From Leptotrichia sp. oral taxon 221 (GTDB taxonomy: Bacteria > Fusobacteriota > Fusobacteriia > Fusobacteriales > Leptotrichiaceae): a stretch of DNA of 64,000 nucleotides. The stretch lies in the NCBI RefSeq assembly GCF_018128245.1, contig NZ_CP072378.1, positions 1,550,001 through 1,614,000 of the forward strand, given 5' to 3'. Both the position numbers and the translations under genes were made by a program. The notes under the pieces were generated by a model. The model did not search any database. It was given only the letters and a program-made list of their open reading frames with translations, and was not told the origin of the DNA. Positions 16,753 to 62,746 of this stretch are shown here, in pieces. Positions within the stretch are counted from its first letter, which is position 1, and the number at the start of each line of letters is the position of its first letter.

Positions 16753-16800
16753 ATATAAATTTTTACATAAAAAAAATCCAATCTACCGTTCTAACTTAAT

Positions 16801-16925
16801 TTTTGGTTGCCTGTAAATGTTACAGGTGGTAGTTATTTTCACAAAACAGCACAGAATCCGTGCAAAGCTAATGCCGCCGTGATTGACCTGAATCTCTTTT
16901 GTAAAGTGATAACCCCATTAAAAAA
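16801..16925 (+). ncRNA. Candidate structured RNA (cobalamin-riboswitch-like layout, unassigned)
   Basis: A GC-richer island in AT-rich DNA. It has an outer pairing of GGTT (near 16804) with AACC (near 16915), a perfect hairpin CCTGTAA-ATG-TTACAGG, and a second hairpin GCAC-AGAATCC-GTGC. These are followed by unpaired-looking AAAGC and GCCGCCGTGATTG. The order of GGTTGCC, the AATCC loop and GCCGCCGTGA resembles a degenerate cobalamin riboswitch, but the GGGAA core and the B12 box are not recognisable. A short AGAAATTTCT-TTTTA hairpin follows near 16970. The next gene on this strand is 410 nt away. Confidence 0.35.
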
Positions 16926-17333
16926 AGAGTAAAGCCCAAAAATTATATTGTTAGTATCGAATAGACCAGAAATTTCTTTTTATATATGTTTATTTCTTTA
17001 TCTAACCTTCTGTATTATATCCTTTATATCCAAAATTGTCAAACATTTATTTTCTAATTTTTTATAAATTTTCATTTGTAATAATAGTTCTTAAAACAAC
17101 TCTTTAAAAAACAAGCCTTTTTTGGTATAATTAATTTATTGAAAAACAAAATTTTATGTACTTATAAATTTTCAAAAACTTTAGTAGAAATAAATAAAAT
17201 CTGGTAAAACTTGATTTTTTATATAAACAAAAAATGAGTTGTTATTCATTATTTATGGAAATGACTTTTTAAATAAAAATAAAAATCAAAACATAATTAA
17301 CTTACCAAAATTAAAAAGAAAGGAATCTGAACT
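16926..17333 (+). other. AT-rich intergenic region before the YoaK-type gene
   Basis: No coding frame or RNA gene is recognised. A TATAAT hexamer near 17126 could serve a transcript for the downstream membrane protein, but no good -35 element is at the right distance. Confidence 0.4.
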
Positions 17334-38484: not shown

Positions 38485-38597
38485 GTGAACTACTCCCGCT
38501 TTTAGAAGTGGGAGCTTCTTGGGAAGTACCTGCTTTTGCTAGCCAAATATATTTACCAAGCTCTTCGGACAGTCCCTGCCCTGTTTTTTTTATTTTC
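38485..38597 (-). ncRNA. Presumed right end and omega-RNA scaffold of the TnpB element
   Basis: Immediately 3' of tnpB on the same strand is a non-coding segment of about 110 nt. It ends with the hairpin CTCCCACTTC-TAAAAG-CGGGAG followed by TAGTTCAC. In IS200/IS605 elements the right end is transcribed as the 3' part of the RNA that guides TnpB, and flanking DNA supplies the guide. If the end is at 38485, the guide would be read from about 38484 down to 38465. Boundaries are inferred. Confidence 0.6.
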
Positions 38598-39695
38598 CTA
38601 ATATTTCAACATCAATTTTCCAATGTTTTTTATATTCACTGCAGCATTGTAATCTCTATCAATTTCAATTCCACAGCACTCACATTTATAACTTCTTTCT
38701 GATAATTTCAGTTCCTCTTTAACATTTCCACATTTACTGCAAGTTTTCGATGACGGAAACCATTTATCTATCTTCAAAAATTGTTTCCCTAAAAACATCA
38801 GTTTATACTCAAGCATTCTCAAAAACATTCCCCACCCATTATCTCCTACACTTTTCCCAAAATTTAATGCCTGGCTCATCCCTTTCATATTCAAATCCTC
38901 AACAACCACAACATTATACGTTTCAGACAATTCTTTTGATAATTTATGCAAAAAATCTCTTCGGCAATTTTTGATATACTCATGCAATCTTGATATTTTC
39001 TCTTTTTGTCTATACCAATTCTTAGAAAATTTCACTTTTCTTGATAATGATTTTTGTAATTTTTTCAATTTTTTCTCCAATATCCTAAAATATCTTGGAT
39101 AATCAGCTCTTTGGTTTTCAGAACTGACAAATAATTCAGACATTGAAAAATCAAGTCCAATTACTTTATCATTACTTGGATTTTTTTGAATTTCTTTTTC
39201 AAATTCTGTCAAAACAGAAACATAATAATTTCCATTGCTATTTGTCAATGTTACTGACTTTATCTTGTAATCCTTTGGTATTTCTCTATGATATTTCAAT
39301 TTTACTTTTTTCAATTTTGGCAAAATCAAATATTCACCTTTCTCAATTCGTATCGAATTATTCACACAATTTGTTGTATAACTTTTAACACTATTCTTTT
39401 TAGATTTGAACCTTGGAAACTTTGCTCTCTTCTGAAAAAAGTTCATAAATGATCGTCTCACATTCAATTGAGCATTTGAAAGTGCCAAACTGTCCACTTC
39501 TTTCAAAAATTGATTTTCACTCTTCAAACTGGCAGGTGTAATTATTTTATTTTTTCCAGTTTCTTCATAAAATTTATTCGCAGTGTACAAAATTGTATTG
39601 TAAACAAAACGAACACATCCAAAAGTCTTATTTATCAATAATTCTTGTTCCTTATTTGGATAAATTCTGTATTTGAATGCTAAATTATATTTCAT
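38598..39695 (-). CDS. tnpB: TnpB, RNA-guided endonuclease of IS200/IS605-type elements
   Basis: 365 residues, apparently intact. The N-terminal helix-turn-helix region begins KYRIYPNKEQELLINKTFGC. The RuvC-like catalytic residues are in place: D in VIGLDFSMSELFV (near residue 176), E in VVVVEDLNMKGMSQ (near 265) and D in EIDRDYNAAVNI (near 348). The zinc finger has CSKCG and CECCG. TnpB cuts DNA matched by its omega-RNA and so helps retain the element. No TnpA transposase lies nearby, so movement would need one in trans. The SD is AAAGGAGG. Confidence 0.95.
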   Translation of the reverse strand: MKYNLAFKYRIYPNKEQELLINKTFGCVRFVYNTILYTANKFYEETGKNKIITPASLKSENQFLKEVDSLALSNAQLNVRRSFMNFFQKRAKFPRFKSKKNSVKSYTTNCVNNSIRIEKGEYLILPKLKKVKLKYHREIPKDYKIKSVTLTNSNGNYYVSVLTEFEKEIQKNPSNDKVIGLDFSMSELFVSSENQRADYPRYFRILEKKLKKLQKSLSRKVKFSKNWYRQKEKISRLHEYIKNCRRDFLHKLSKELSETYNVVVVEDLNMKGMSQALNFGKSVGDNGWGMFLRMLEYKLMFLGKQFLKIDKWFPSSKTCSKCGNVKEELKLSERSYKCECCGIEIDRDYNAAVNIKNIGKLMLKY

Positions 39696-41910: not shown

Positions 41911-42516
41911 TTAGGCGTCCAACTCCGAATCTCCGATGTATAATCTTCCAAACAATTTTGGACATTCTTTTTTCATAGAGTTAGGAACTTTCTTATTCCA
42001 ACTAAATTTAAGTTTTGGATAATCTTCATCTTGATAATTTAATTTTTCTTTATACTCATCAAATACTTCCAAATATTTTTCAAATGCTTCCTCAAAATCT
42101 TCCAATGAATTTTTTATTCTAAAAGCATCTATAGCTACAAAGAAAAAATCTTCATTTTCATATAGATCACTTGCAAATCCATCTTCTTCAGGTGTTTTTA
42201 CATATTTAATAAGATCGTCTGGATTCTTTAAAATTTCTTCATATACATCTTTTCCTTGTGAAATGAGCCATAATCTAAAGAAATCAAAGAATTCTTCACT
42301 GTCTTCACCATTAATCAAATACGATGCACACCACAATTTTTCATTATAGCTTTCAAGCATCAATTCATCTATAATAATTCCAAAACTAAAAATTGTTTCA
42401 TCTGTTTCTTTGGATAATTTTTCTGTTAAATAATTTAACATTTCTGATCCATTTTTCGTATTATTTTGAGCCTCCGAAACATAATTCCAAAAGCTCTCTC
42501 TTGTCATATTCAACAT
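41911..42516 (-). CDS. DUF4240 domain protein
   Basis: 201 residues. The family pattern is visible: TRESFWNYVSEAQNN at the N terminus, IIDELMLESYNEKLWCASYL (near residue 50) and FFDFFRLWLISQGKDVYEEI (near 75). DUF4240 proteins are cytoplasmic, acidic and of unknown function, often found near immunity-like or WGR/SMI-like genes. The SD is GGAG at 8 nt. It lies 18 nt downstream of the DUF2278 gene, so the two form a small operon. Confidence 0.85.
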   Translation of the reverse strand: MLNMTRESFWNYVSEAQNNTKNGSEMLNYLTEKLSKETDETIFSFGIIIDELMLESYNEKLWCASYLINGEDSEEFFDFFRLWLISQGKDVYEEILKNPDDLIKYVKTPEEDGFASDLYENEDFFFVAIDAFRIKNSLEDFEEAFEKYLEVFDEYKEKLNYQDEDYPKLKFSWNKKVPNSMKKECPKLFGRLYIGDSELDA

Positions 42517-42534: not shown

Positions 42535-43113
42535 CTATAAAGCTTTTCCATTTCTATCAGTTCTCAATGTTTGAGTTCTAAAAGCAATAAACAATGCCTT
42601 CCATTTTTTCACTTTTCTGTCGAAAAAAAATATTGCTCCGTCTGAAAATGGACTGTCTTTTAATTTATGTTTCCCTCTACTCCCTTGATTTAAATGAATA
42701 TCATGTATTCCTTTATTATTTGAATATAGCTTACCAAATACAAATATTTCAAATCTTTCGTTTAGCATCATTTTACAAATATTTTCTTCAATTAATTCTG
42801 TTAAGAAAATCTCTTTTTCACTAAAACCTTTCATTAACTTCAACTTCTCATGAGGAAATAATTTCATCTTAGAATAATCTAAACACAAGCCTTTTCTAGC
42901 TTCTGTCACACCTTCTTTCTGCAATAGCATTTCTTTCAAAATCTTCCTATTGTAAGTATATTCCTCCTCATAACAGACACGTAAATCCGAAGATTTAACT
43001 ACGCCATTTTGCTCTAAAATACTTCCTATATTAATTGCCAAATCATATTGTTTACCTTCAGCATCTGCGATGATATGATAATGAGAATTTTTCTGATTTT
43101 TATAAATTTTGTT
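42535..43113 (-). CDS. DUF2278 (YukJ-like) protein, second exon
   Basis: 192 codons that carry most of a DUF2278 protein: KNSHYHIIADAEGKQYDLAI at the start and GIHDIHLNQGSRGKHKL with DGAIFFFDRKVKKWKALFIA at the end. The family's usual N terminus (Y-x-V-x-x-G-K-V-I-D) is missing here and is found 500 nt upstream at 43609-43665, separated by a group I intron. A GTG at 43116 is in frame but has no ribosome site and lies in the intron's last bases. Spliced, the protein would have about 211 residues. Function unknown. Confidence 0.85.
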   Translation of the reverse strand, partial: NKIYKNQKNSHYHIIADAEGKQYDLAINIGSILEQNGVVKSSDLRVCYEEEYTYNRKILKEMLLQKEGVTEARKGLCLDYSKMKLFPHEKLKLMKGFSEKEIFLTELIEENICKMMLNERFEIFVFGKLYSNNKGIHDIHLNQGSRGKHKLKDSPFSDGAIFFFDRKVKKWKALFIAFRTQTLRTDRNGKAL

Positions 43114-43608
43114 CACATAAGCTCGCTACTTCTTATGCAGTTCTTTATTAAGCTTTTCTTCACTATAATTAGAGAAAAATTTAACTTCAAACTTCTTGCT
43201 ATTTCTAACAAGCACAGACTATATCTTATCCTACAGCATTATCCGTTTAGGTCTACCCACTTCCACCAACTTTGGTGTACTTCCAAAAAGGAATAGTCGT
43301 TGAACTTTACTTTTCAGTCTTAGCTGCTGGTTGTCCATTATTTTAGCACTTAGGATTTAACCTTATGCCATCTAGTTTATTTTTTCTGCTTTCGCCACTT
43401 TCACACTTACATCTATATTCTTAATTTATTAAACAGAATAGATATTATGTTGTAGTCAAACTAACTTTAGGATTTTCCAGCAATTCAAGTAGTTTTTTAT
43501 AGTTTTATAACTATTTTCACACACATTTCTGTATGCGTTGACTAATTTTTATGATTTTATTTTTATTTCTAATTTTATTCTTAAAAATGTGAAAATCATT
43601 ATTTTTTA
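43114..43608 (-). ncRNA. Group I intron (subgroup IA type) inside the DUF2278 gene
   Basis: All core elements occur in order on the minus strand. P: AATTGCTGGAAA (43485-43474). Q: CCAGCAGCTAAG (43330-43319); P and Q pair as P4 (GCTGG/CCAGC). R: GTTCAACGACTA (43305-43294). S: AAGATATAGTC (43227-43217); R and S pair as P7 (GACTA/TAGTC). P3 is CTACTT/GGGTAG and P8 CCTA/TAGG. Two hairpins after R (TTCC/GGAA and CACCAA/TTGGTG) match the P7.1/P7.2 extension of subgroup IA. The 3' end is placed at the G of 43114; the 5' end is within a few bases of 43608. There is no endonuclease gene inside. Confidence 0.9.
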
Positions 43609-43665
43609 ATCAAAATCATACCATTTATCTATCACTTTTCCTCTAAAAAACACATATTTTTCCAT
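43609..43665 (-). CDS. DUF2278 protein, first exon
   Basis: An ATG at 43665 opens 19 codons (MEKYVFFRGKVIDKWYDFD) ending at an in-frame TAA that lies in the intron. FFRGKVIDKW fits the conserved N terminus of DUF2278 proteins. Joining its last codon (GAT) to AAC at 43113 restores one reading frame. AAGG stands 11 nt before the ATG and a TATAAT hexamer lies about 30 nt further upstream. Confidence 0.75.
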
Positions 43666-43847: not shown

Positions 43848-43885
43848 GTGAACTACTCCCACTTTTAGAAGCTGAAGACTTCTTG
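43848..43885 (-). repeat. Orphan TnpB right-end-like copy
   Basis: On the minus strand it starts CAAGAAGTCTTCAGCTTCT and ends AAAAGTGGGAGTAGTTCAC. The last 19 bases differ from the TnpB right end at 38485 by one base. There is no tnpB beside it. It lies about 180 nt upstream of the first DUF2278 exon. Confidence 0.6.
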
Positions 43886-43954: not shown

Positions 43955-44845
43955 TTATTTTTTCTTAATTTTGTATCCCATTTCATCTAAAAATTGTTTA
44001 TTTTTTCTCCATTTTTTCTTAACTTTTACCCACAATTTCAAATTCACTTTCAAATCAATCAAAGCTTCAATTTCTCGTCTCGCTTCAATTCCAATTTTCT
44101 TCAACAAAGCACCGTCTTTTCCAATGATAATCCCTTTTTGACTATCTCTTTCAACATAAATATTCACATCATATTTTCTAATATTCGGCTTCGTCTCAAC
44201 ATTTATAATCTCGACAGCAACACTGTGAGGAATCTCATCTTTCGTATGATGCAATATTTTTTCCCTAATTGTCTCAACAACAATTTTATTAACAGGCAAA
44301 TCTGTATAATAATCTTCTGGATAAAACCACACATCATTCGACAAATAAGGCTCTGCAACTTCAAAAATTTTGTGAATACCTATCGCATATTCTGCAGTCA
44401 AAGTTATGATATTTTCGTAATCGCCCAATTTTTCTTTGATTTCCAACTTTTTCTCTTCAATCTCTTCATCTGATAATTTGTCAATTTTATTAATTATCAC
44501 AATTACAGGTGTATTCGCTTCTTTAATATGCTCACTCACAAAAATATCTCCAGTTGAAATTTCCACACTTCCGTCAAGCATAAACATTATCAAATCCACA
44601 TCATTTAACGTTTCTAACGCAACTTCTGTCATATGCTCACCTAACAAATGCTTCGGCTTATGAATTCCAGGCGTATCAACAAAAATATACTGATTATCTT
44701 GAATATTTACAATCCCTCTAATTTGGTCTCTTGTAGTCCCAGCTTTATCTGAAACTATCGCAACTTTCTCTTTTACCAATTTATTCATCAATGTTGATTT
44801 TCCCACATTTGGACGACCAACAATCGCTATAAATCCTGATTTCAT
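43955..44845 (-). CDS. era: GTPase Era
   Basis: Essential GTPase that binds 16S rRNA during 30S maturation. G motifs: AIVGRPNVGKSTLMNKL (G1), GTTRDQIRG (G2), FVDTPGIHKPKH (G3), IINKIDKLS (G4) and LTAEYAIG (G5). The C-terminal KH domain contains QKGIIIGKDGALLKKIGIEA. The ATG at 44845 follows GGAGG and gives 297 residues; an upstream ATG at 44860 precedes that SD. Confidence 0.97.
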   Translation of the reverse strand: MKSGFIAIVGRPNVGKSTLMNKLVKEKVAIVSDKAGTTRDQIRGIVNIQDNQYIFVDTPGIHKPKHLLGEHMTEVALETLNDVDLIMFMLDGSVEISTGDIFVSEHIKEANTPVIVIINKIDKLSDEEIEEKKLEIKEKLGDYENIITLTAEYAIGIHKIFEVAEPYLSNDVWFYPEDYYTDLPVNKIVVETIREKILHHTKDEIPHSVAVEIINVETKPNIRKYDVNIYVERDSQKGIIIGKDGALLKKIGIEARREIEALIDLKVNLKLWVKVKKKWRKNKQFLDEMGYKIKKK

Positions 44846-45005
44846 CTTTCCTCCTTCCATTTTATTTTTCTATTTTATTCTATTAATTTCAAAGAGCCAT
44901 TTCATAATTCAAAAATAATCTCTATCATATTTTTCTTTACAGAAATAGCTTTCACCTTAATTTATAATTTCTAAAACAATTTAAACAACAATTTGAACCA
45001 AGATA

Positions 45006-61458: not shown

Positions 61459-61533
61459 TGGTACGGCCTAGGGGGATCGAACCCCTGTTGCCAGGATGAA
61501 AACCTGGAGTCCTAACCACTAGACGAAGGCCGC
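61459..61533 (-). tRNA. tRNA-Glu (TTC), copy 2
   Basis: 75 nt, anticodon loop TTTTCAT, encoded CCA. The acceptor stem starts with a G-T pair. Last tRNA of the operon. Confidence 0.96.
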
Positions 61534-61545
61534 AGAACTCTTTCT

Positions 61546-61622
61546 TGGTGGATCCAGCTGGACTTGAACCAGCGACCGCTCGGTTATGAGCCGAGTGCTC
61601 TAACCAGCTGAGCTATGGATCC
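61546..61622 (-). tRNA. tRNA-Ile2 (CAT), copy 2
   Basis: 77 nt, anticodon loop CTCATAA, acceptor GGATCCA/TGGATCC, encoded CCA. The loop and stem fit the lysidine-modified Ile tRNA that reads ATA better than Met. Confidence 0.88.
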
Positions 61623-61626
61623 TTAA

Positions 61627-61703
61627 TGGCGTACCTGAAGAGATTCGAACTCCTGGCCCACGGCTTAGAAGGCCGTTGCTCTATCCAACTGAGCTACAGG
61701 TAC
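61627..61703 (-). tRNA. tRNA-Arg (TCT), copy 2
   Basis: 77 nt, anticodon loop CTTCTAA, discriminator G, encoded CCA. Confidence 0.96.
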
Positions 61704-61729
61704 ACATCATTATTTTTTCTTTATTAAAA

Positions 61730-61805
61730 TGGTGAGCCATACTGGGATCGAACCAGTGACACCTTGATTAAAAGTCAAGTGCTCTACCGACTGAGCTAAT
61801 GGCTC
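61730..61805 (-). tRNA. tRNA-Lys (TTT), copy 2
   Basis: 76 nt, anticodon loop CTTTTAA, encoded CCA. Confidence 0.96.
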
Positions 61806-61811
61806 TCAATT

Positions 61812-61887
61812 TGGAGCGGGAGACGAGGGTCGAACTCGCGACATTCAGCTTGGAAGGCTGACGCTCTACCAACTGAGCTACTCCCGC
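61812..61887 (-). tRNA. tRNA-Gly (TCC), copy 2
   Basis: 76 nt, anticodon loop CTTCCAA, discriminator T, encoded CCA. Confidence 0.96.
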
Positions 61888-61899
61888 ATATCTTTTTTG

Positions 61900-61986
61900 T
61901 GGTGCCTCGGGCCGGACTTGAACCGGCACGGAATTGCTTCCACAGGATTTTAAGTCCTGTGCGTCTACCGATTTCGCCACCAAGGC
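61900..61986 (-). tRNA. tRNA-Leu (TAA), copy 2
   Basis: 87-nt class II tRNA, anticodon loop CTTAAAA, encoded CCA; identical to the copies at 20047 and 62660. Confidence 0.96.
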
Positions 61987-62004
61987 ATATTAATACTTTT
62001 TAAA

Positions 62005-62080
62005 TGGTGCCCAGACGCGGAATCGAACCACGGACACAGGGATTTTCAGTCCCTTGCTCTACCGACTGAGCTATCTGGGC
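62005..62080 (-). tRNA. tRNA-Phe (GAA)
   Basis: 76 nt, anticodon loop CTGAAAA, encoded CCA. It lies between the two copies of the duplicated block. Confidence 0.96.
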
Positions 62081-62084
62081 AAAA

Positions 62085-62171
62085 TGGCGGGTGAACTGGG
62101 ATTCGAACCCAGACATCTTGCGATTTCGCCGGTTTTCAAGACCGGTCCCTTAGCCGTTCGGACATCCACCC
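62085..62171 (-). tRNA. tRNA-Ser (TGA)
   Basis: 87-nt class II tRNA, anticodon loop CTTGAAA, discriminator G, encoded CCA. It lies between the two copies of the duplicated block. Confidence 0.96.
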
Positions 62172-62217
62172 ATACTAAAAGCAAATAATTATTATTAATT
62201 TAAATTCTAAATTTTAA

Positions 62218-62292
62218 TGGTACGGCCTAGGGGGATCGAACCCCTGTTGCCAGGATGAAAACCTGGAGTCCTAACCACTAGACGAAGGCCGC
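62218..62292 (-). tRNA. tRNA-Glu (TTC), copy 1
   Basis: 75 nt, anticodon loop TTTTCAT, encoded CCA; identical to copy 2. Confidence 0.96.
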
Positions 62293-62304
62293 AAAACTCT
62301 TTCT

Positions 62305-62381
62305 TGGTGGATCCAGCTGGACTTGAACCAGCGACCGCTCGGTTATGAGCCGAGTGCTCTAACCAGCTGAGCTATGGATCC
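62305..62381 (-). tRNA. tRNA-Ile2 (CAT), copy 1
   Basis: 77 nt, anticodon loop CTCATAA, encoded CCA; identical to copy 2. Ile2 is favoured over Met. Confidence 0.88.
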
Positions 62382-62385
62382 TTAA

Positions 62386-62462
62386 TGGCGTACCTGAAGA
62401 GATTCGAACTCCTGGCCCACGGCTTAGAAGGCCGTTGCTCTATCCAACTGAGCTACAGGTAC
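62386..62462 (-). tRNA. tRNA-Arg (TCT), copy 1
   Basis: 77 nt, anticodon loop CTTCTAA, encoded CCA. Confidence 0.96.
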
Positions 62463-62489
62463 ACATCATTATTTTTTTCTTTATTAAAA

Positions 62490-62565
62490 TGGTGAGCCAT
62501 ACTGGGATCGAACCAGTGACACCTTGATTAAAAGTCAAGTGCTCTACCGACTGAGCTAATGGCTC
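62490..62565 (-). tRNA. tRNA-Lys (TTT), copy 1
   Basis: 76 nt, anticodon loop CTTTTAA, encoded CCA. Confidence 0.96.
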
Positions 62566-62571
62566 TCAATT

Positions 62572-62647
62572 TGGAGCGGGAGACGAGGGTCGAACTCGCG
62601 ACATTCAGCTTGGAAGGCTGACGCTCTACCAACTGAGCTACTCCCGC
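62572..62647 (-). tRNA. tRNA-Gly (TCC), copy 1
   Basis: 76 nt, anticodon loop CTTCCAA, encoded CCA. Confidence 0.96.
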
Positions 62648-62659
62648 ATATCTTTTTTG

Positions 62660-62746
62660 TGGTGCCTCGGGCCGGACTTGAACCGGCACGGAATTGCTTC
62701 CACAGGATTTTAAGTCCTGTGCGTCTACCGATTTCGCCACCAAGGC
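62660..62746 (-). tRNA. tRNA-Leu (TAA), copy 1
   Basis: 87-nt class II tRNA, anticodon loop CTTAAAA, encoded CCA. First tRNA of the operon. Confidence 0.96.

Follow-up and report, generated by a model that had tools for sequence, protein, structure and literature searches.

Does the DUF2278 gene of Leptotrichia sp. oral taxon 221 contain a group I intron that splices itself out, and where would such an intron have come from? The window, that is, the whole analysed stretch of 64,000 nt (positions 1,550,001 to 1,614,000 of contig NZ_CP072378.1), carries this gene in two pieces on its minus strand (Table 1). The intervening sequence (43093-43608, hereafter the window intron) is very probably a self-splicing intron of group IA2 that belongs to the group A IStron lineage and has lost its transposon part. 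IStrons, composed of a group I intron and an IS605-type transposon, are known from Fusobacteria through reports of 2007 and 2014 (PMC1924603 and PMC4227781, excerpts), and the excerpts of the later report already describe both ORF-less IStrons and ORF-less introns next to the pentamer TTGAT. The window intron is no isolated oddity: it belongs with the IStron-related introns of Fusobacteria treated in these excerpts (PMC4227781, PMC1924603), a point missed by an earlier note on this DNA.

Judged from its sequence, the locus appears to add one more bacterial protein gene that depends on RNA splicing, and its intron joins a set of bare introns with close relatives that are still part of TnpB-type elements. 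Two questions are thereby made testable: whether ORF-less introns gave rise to IStrons or are what is left of them, and whether a host gene's need for splicing can let an intron outlive its transposon. A 2024 Science paper reportedly deals with IStron introns and guide RNAs. The locus also holds a warning for annotation, as the intron lies 1.6 bits below the Rfam threshold and a gene finder is expected to call the gene truncated.

Table 1. Features of the DUF2278 locus (window coordinates)
Feature	Position	Strand	Remarks
Era-like GTPase gene	43955-44860	minus	named by eye; other flank of the DUF2278 locus
Exon 1 of DUF2278 gene	43609-43665	minus	19 codons, MEKYVFFRGKVIDKWYDFD; last pentamer TTGAT at 43609-43613
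Group IA2-type intron	43093-43608	minus	516 nt, TAAAAAAT...AAAATCAG
Internal guide sequence GTCAA	43538-43542	minus	pairs with exon TTGAT; stem UUGAUUAA/UUAGUCAA
Catalytic core	43215-43492	minus	P3 5' strand (43492-43487) to S box
P box	43486-43474	minus	
Q box	43334-43323	minus	
R box	43305-43294	minus	
P7 pairing	43298-43294 with 43221-43217	minus	
P7.1	43293-43281	minus	
P7.2	43277-43264	minus	
S box	43227-43215	minus	
Intron 3' terminus TCAG	43093-43096	minus	terminal G, as in group A IStrons
Exon 2 of DUF2278 gene	42535-43092	minus	185 codons and stop
DUF4240 gene	41911-42516	minus	downstream of DUF2278 gene

The predicted spliced gene and its boundaries

A search for DUF2278 in 60 genomes, the host genome included, gave matches in 18: the host itself, a partial match at a contig end (G001, outside the counts that follow) and 16 complete orthologues, 14 of which were aligned and two (G008 and G023) read directly. 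None of the 16 complete orthologues has an insertion at the intron site. Across the junction they show WYDFDKRAHYHI or near variants with identical spacing, and the pentamer TTGAT itself is present there in nine of them. An intron ending at 43093 joins WYDFD to KNSHYHI, gap-free against all 16, whereas an end at 43114 would insert seven residues (NKIYKNQ) and is ruled out by the alignment. The reading frame cannot choose between the two boundaries, because the 21-nt difference preserves it, and both choices give the same Pfam score for the spliced product (DUF2278, PF10042; 113.5 bits, cut-off 25). We place the 3' splice site at 43093 because of the orthologue alignment and the TCAG terminus that excerpts of PMC4227781 give for group A IStrons; the sequence GTGAAC near 43114 is shared with the IStrons because at that place their IS part follows. 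The earlier note had set the intron at 43114-43608 (about 495 nt). Its 5' end stands, its 3' end is 21 nt off according to the orthologues (43093, 516 nt), and its claim that removal of the intron joins both parts in one frame is unaffected by this frame-neutral shift.

The 19-codon stretch proposed on the 5' side of the intron is indeed exon 1. It is conserved in the comparison with homologues that had been suggested as a check, 18 of its 19 residues being identical to those of the orthologue in G025, and the compared part of the DUF2278 protein is 52% identical. Without splicing, exon 1 would run into a stop at codon 20; exon 2 is open through all 185 codons. A relative of the downstream DUF4240 gene was found by tblastn at 12 of the 16 orthologue loci. 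DUF2278 itself gave no sequence-related solved structure at E 0.01, and the word was not found in the literature searched. A promoter scan gave 12 sites against 9.6 expected.

Core structure and covariation

The P, Q, R and S boxes, the core pairings and the P7.1 and P7.2 hairpins that had been proposed from the letters alone are all present, with their coordinates checked, and helices P2 to P9.2 form. P7.1 and P7.2 hairpins are a mark of subgroup IA. In P1 there is a U-G pair at the 5' splice site, and the helix is lengthened by UAA/UUA. No sense ORF of at least 60 aa is confined to 43093-43608, so there is no homing-endonuclease ORF.

The covariance search that had been suggested gave a divided answer. 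The Intron_gpI model (RF00028) matched 43542-43195 in an 801-base search with E 3.7e-11, but with 48.4 bits against a gathering score of 50. A default Rfam scan of the window does not list the intron because its score is just under 50 bits, and it was absent from both first-look RF00028 listings, that of the host genome and that of the 60 genomes. The score is not unusual, since the Leptotrichia matches listed span 42.4 to 72.1 bits, with one exception at 36.5.

For covariation, 16 introns of the TTGAT class were aligned and 84 pairs (P2 to P9.2) were drawn by hand on the window intron, which is therefore paired at 84 of 84 by construction; its 15 relatives retain 80 to 83. Overall 97.8% of the 1344 cells (84 pairs in 16 introns) are paired, and pairing falls to 31-42% when the partners are slid by one to three columns. 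Changes on both sides were seen in 27 of the 84 pairs, compared with 11.9 in shuffles (0/500), and the covariation score was 0.232 compared with 0.133 (0/500). Another of the five pair measures, the number of further pair types, was weakly above the shuffles (53 against 48.6, 16/500). The assignment of a group I intron to the DUF2278 gene, made in the earlier note, is thus backed by covariation as well as by the guide, the uninterrupted orthologues and the conservation of the exon.

The window intron could nevertheless be dead, either because the DUF2278 gene is a split pseudogene or because only exon 2 is translated, from a GTG at 43116. This GTG lies inside the intron, in keeping with the false GTG start that gene finders had been predicted to report. 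Decay of the intron would accord with its private changes, at 12 of the 240 columns that are invariant in the other 15 introns; the same measure gives 8 of 236 for the second ORF-less TTGAT copy of the host genome (near 1524 k), 8 of 236 for the copy in G017 and 1 of 229 for site 1 of G026. It would also accord with a short 3' tail: RNAfold finds no stem in the last 18 nt, where by eye a four-pair stem AUUU/AAAU remains, and all seven ORF-less TTGAT sisters have a stem at that place, two of them weak (-3.1 and -3.4 kcal/mol). However, three pair types unique to the window intron (columns 78-85, 459-470 and 460-469) have changed on both sides with pairing kept. Exon 1 has moreover kept residues that would be dispensable for a product starting at 43116, and by eye that GTG has no evident Shine-Dalgarno sequence. 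We consider a dead intron quite improbable.

An IStron-type intron without a transposon

The window intron, as an intron that probably still splices, stands directly after TTGAT and ends in TCAG, in agreement with the group A rules (insertion after TTGAT, ATTAT or TTTAT; TCAG terminus). By these two features and its guide for the 5' exon, all read from sequence, it belongs to the group A IStron lineage. Neither ORF A nor ORF B (TnpA, TnpB) is found within 43093-43608, and its ends lack the subterminal palindromes of the TTGAT IStrons in the alignment. An active IStron is ruled out by the missing ORFs and end hairpins, and for the same reason we file the element as an intron of the IStron lineage and not as an IStron. 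It might still be mobile without being autonomous, relying on an IS605-type TnpA in trans, given that its 5' target and 3' end are those of IStrons and that the host genome has two TnpA genes. Against this, the end hairpins of the TTGAT IStrons are absent from the window intron, and the hairpin in its P1 loop is A+T-rich and unrelated to these; we regard trans-mobility as highly improbable.

As a resident intron of probable IStron descent, the window intron has several known counterparts. By description in excerpts of PMC4227781, an ORF-less intron of Fusobacterium periodonticum and its relatives share with it group IA2, a position next to TTGAT, the lack of an IS part and closeness to the intron part of FnISt1, but the 3' end of the F. 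periodonticum intron is reported there as unlike IStron termini, whereas the window intron ends in TCAG. The published TTGAT-target IStron with a TCAG end agrees by description in intron class, target and end rule, and differs in being up to 1857 nt long with an ORF B of TnpB type, the window intron having no ORF and no end hairpins of the IStron type. BcISt1 of emetic Bacillus cereus strains is, in the excerpts of PMC4227781, an IStron that has lost both ORFs and is vertically inherited; it is ORF-less like the window intron, but belongs to group B, is of IS607 type, has a target ending in GG and has kept its inverted-repeat stem-loop. Homologous intron cores were found on a Clostridioides difficile plasmid (L208, CP103805), also after TTGAT and followed by an annotated tnpB, and on an Enterococcus faecium plasmid (L209, NZ_LR135261), followed by annotated tnpA and tnpB. 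In the literature on Leptotrichia and group I introns, PMC4227781 alone looks relevant as judged from the listing, and no group I intron in cobK/cbiJ appeared among the matches listed.

Distribution of related copies

The family set comprises 50 distinct copies from nine genomes, after removal of a duplicate locus (L204). Outside it are further RF00028 matches, mostly in G029, some in G024 and one each in G009, G016 and G039, together with intron fragments at about 209 k and 1432 k of the host chromosome. Targets were scanned with five pentamers allowed, the candidate closest to the P box being chosen, and in all 50 copies TAA follows directly on TTGAT (16 copies) or TTTAT (34). A pattern search detected the guide expected for the class (GTCA[AG] or GTAAG) in 48 copies, and direct reading gave GTCAA and GTCAG for the remaining two. 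No TTGAT-type copy was found by pattern at eight loci in Fusobacteriaceae, Sebaldella-like genomes and two fragments of the host genome. When the window intron was searched against 33 family genomes, 17 matches were obtained at E 1e-60, namely the 16 TTGAT-class copies and one TTTAT copy.

The copies fall into 41 elements of 1755-1996 nt, with the 3' limit set by the pattern GAGAGGTTCAG or GGGAGGTTCAG and with ORFs that are not all intact, and nine ORF-less copies of 498-648 nt. A frame test of the flanks, passed with at least 10 codons to an upstream start and 20 open codons downstream, was passed by 43 of 50 copies in sense and 11 of 50 in antisense, and by all 16 of the TTGAT class; the excess is modest because 1289 of 2450 mismatched flank pairings (52.6%) pass as well.

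Phylogeny of the ORF-less introns

An unrooted maximum-likelihood tree was built from 52 cores, the 50 copies and the C. difficile and E. faecium elements. One branch sets eight ORF-less TTGAT introns apart from the other 44 (SH-aLRT 92.6, UFBoot 97). Branching within the group is partly weak, and the window intron is its longest tip branch; the ninth ORF-less copy (G027, after TTTAT) is placed elsewhere. The eight introns occupy four places: the DUF2278 gene, a MarR-type gene of the same genome and two sites in cbiJ/cobK.

In three Leptotrichia genomes cbiJ/cobK is split by two ORF-less introns (L078:2280-4222 in G024, L071 in G026, L072 in G027). In G024 the three exon pieces align one after another with the Pfam profile (2-65, 66-185 and 186-219), leaving no gap or overlap, and the gene is assigned in G026 and G027 because the flanks match. 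G024 also has a TTTAT-type IStron downstream of the last matched cbiJ exon piece. The second copy of the host genome (L065:1563-2060, G000:C1, ~1524 k) is a 498-nt intron in phase in a gene for a MarR-type regulator, of which the first exon piece was matched and the second had no MarR-family match (its best match was PX, E 0.041).

It could be argued that the ORF-less introns were never IStrons but form an old lineage of their own, of plain group I introns, and that IStrons arose when such an intron joined an IS605-type element. The 2014 survey, in the excerpts of PMC4227781, reads the F. periodonticum TTGAT intron in this way, and the ORF-less copies do group apart and lack IStron-type end hairpins. 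Yet their target TTGAT is of transposon type and they end in TCAG as well, and the two reference elements, L208 with tnpB and L209 with tnpA and tnpB, lie across the branch in a tree that is unrooted. An IStron-like stretch is moreover retained in the tails of the 1524 k copy (GAACGACAATCTTTAAAAC) and of cbiJ site 1, where IStrons of G029 have GAACGACAACCTCTAAAAC, and because of these stretches we favour loss from an IStron and consider an ancestral plain intron rather unlikely.

Under loss from an IStron, an ancestral copy would have inserted after TTGAT in the DUF2278 gene, and its transposon genes and end hairpins would then have been lost or eroded. The ribozyme would have been retained, its guide GTCAA pairing with the same TTGAT, and guanosine-initiated splicing would join ...TTGAT to AAAAATTCT... 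and so yield one DUF2278 protein of 204 residues. Judged from the sequence, the window intron is probably spliced in the cell, its transposon part would once have been present and then lost, and the need for an intact DUF2278 protein would maintain the intron. The transposon part may have been lost a single time, with the bare intron spreading later, or at each site independently. A more far-reaching proposal, and in our view a doubtful one, is that a single loss of the transposon gave rise to all eight ORF-less introns, and that this lineage then reached four sites, three genes and two genera without IStron-type end hairpins. If true, an IStron would have returned to intron-only life and spread by RNA-level reverse splicing at guide-recognised TTGAT or by trans-mobilisation.

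Minor features of the window

A TnpB gene at 38598-39695 is part of an IS605-type element present at least nine times in the genome, in copies about 92-93% alike; the copy near 955 k also carries TnpA. As a partner of the window intron it is ruled out, since it belongs to this separate multi-copy family. Upstream of the DUF2278 gene, at 43848-43883, is a solitary IS605-type right-end palindrome (AGAAGTCTTC..GGGAGTAGTTCAC), and its motif recurs behind the TnpB gene at 38485-38497 (0.02 chance matches expected in the window). The window further contains a 6S RNA match at 16771-16975 (49.9 bits) and, at 61459-62746, a tRNA array that contains the ordered series Glu-Met-Arg-Lys-Gly-Leu twice.
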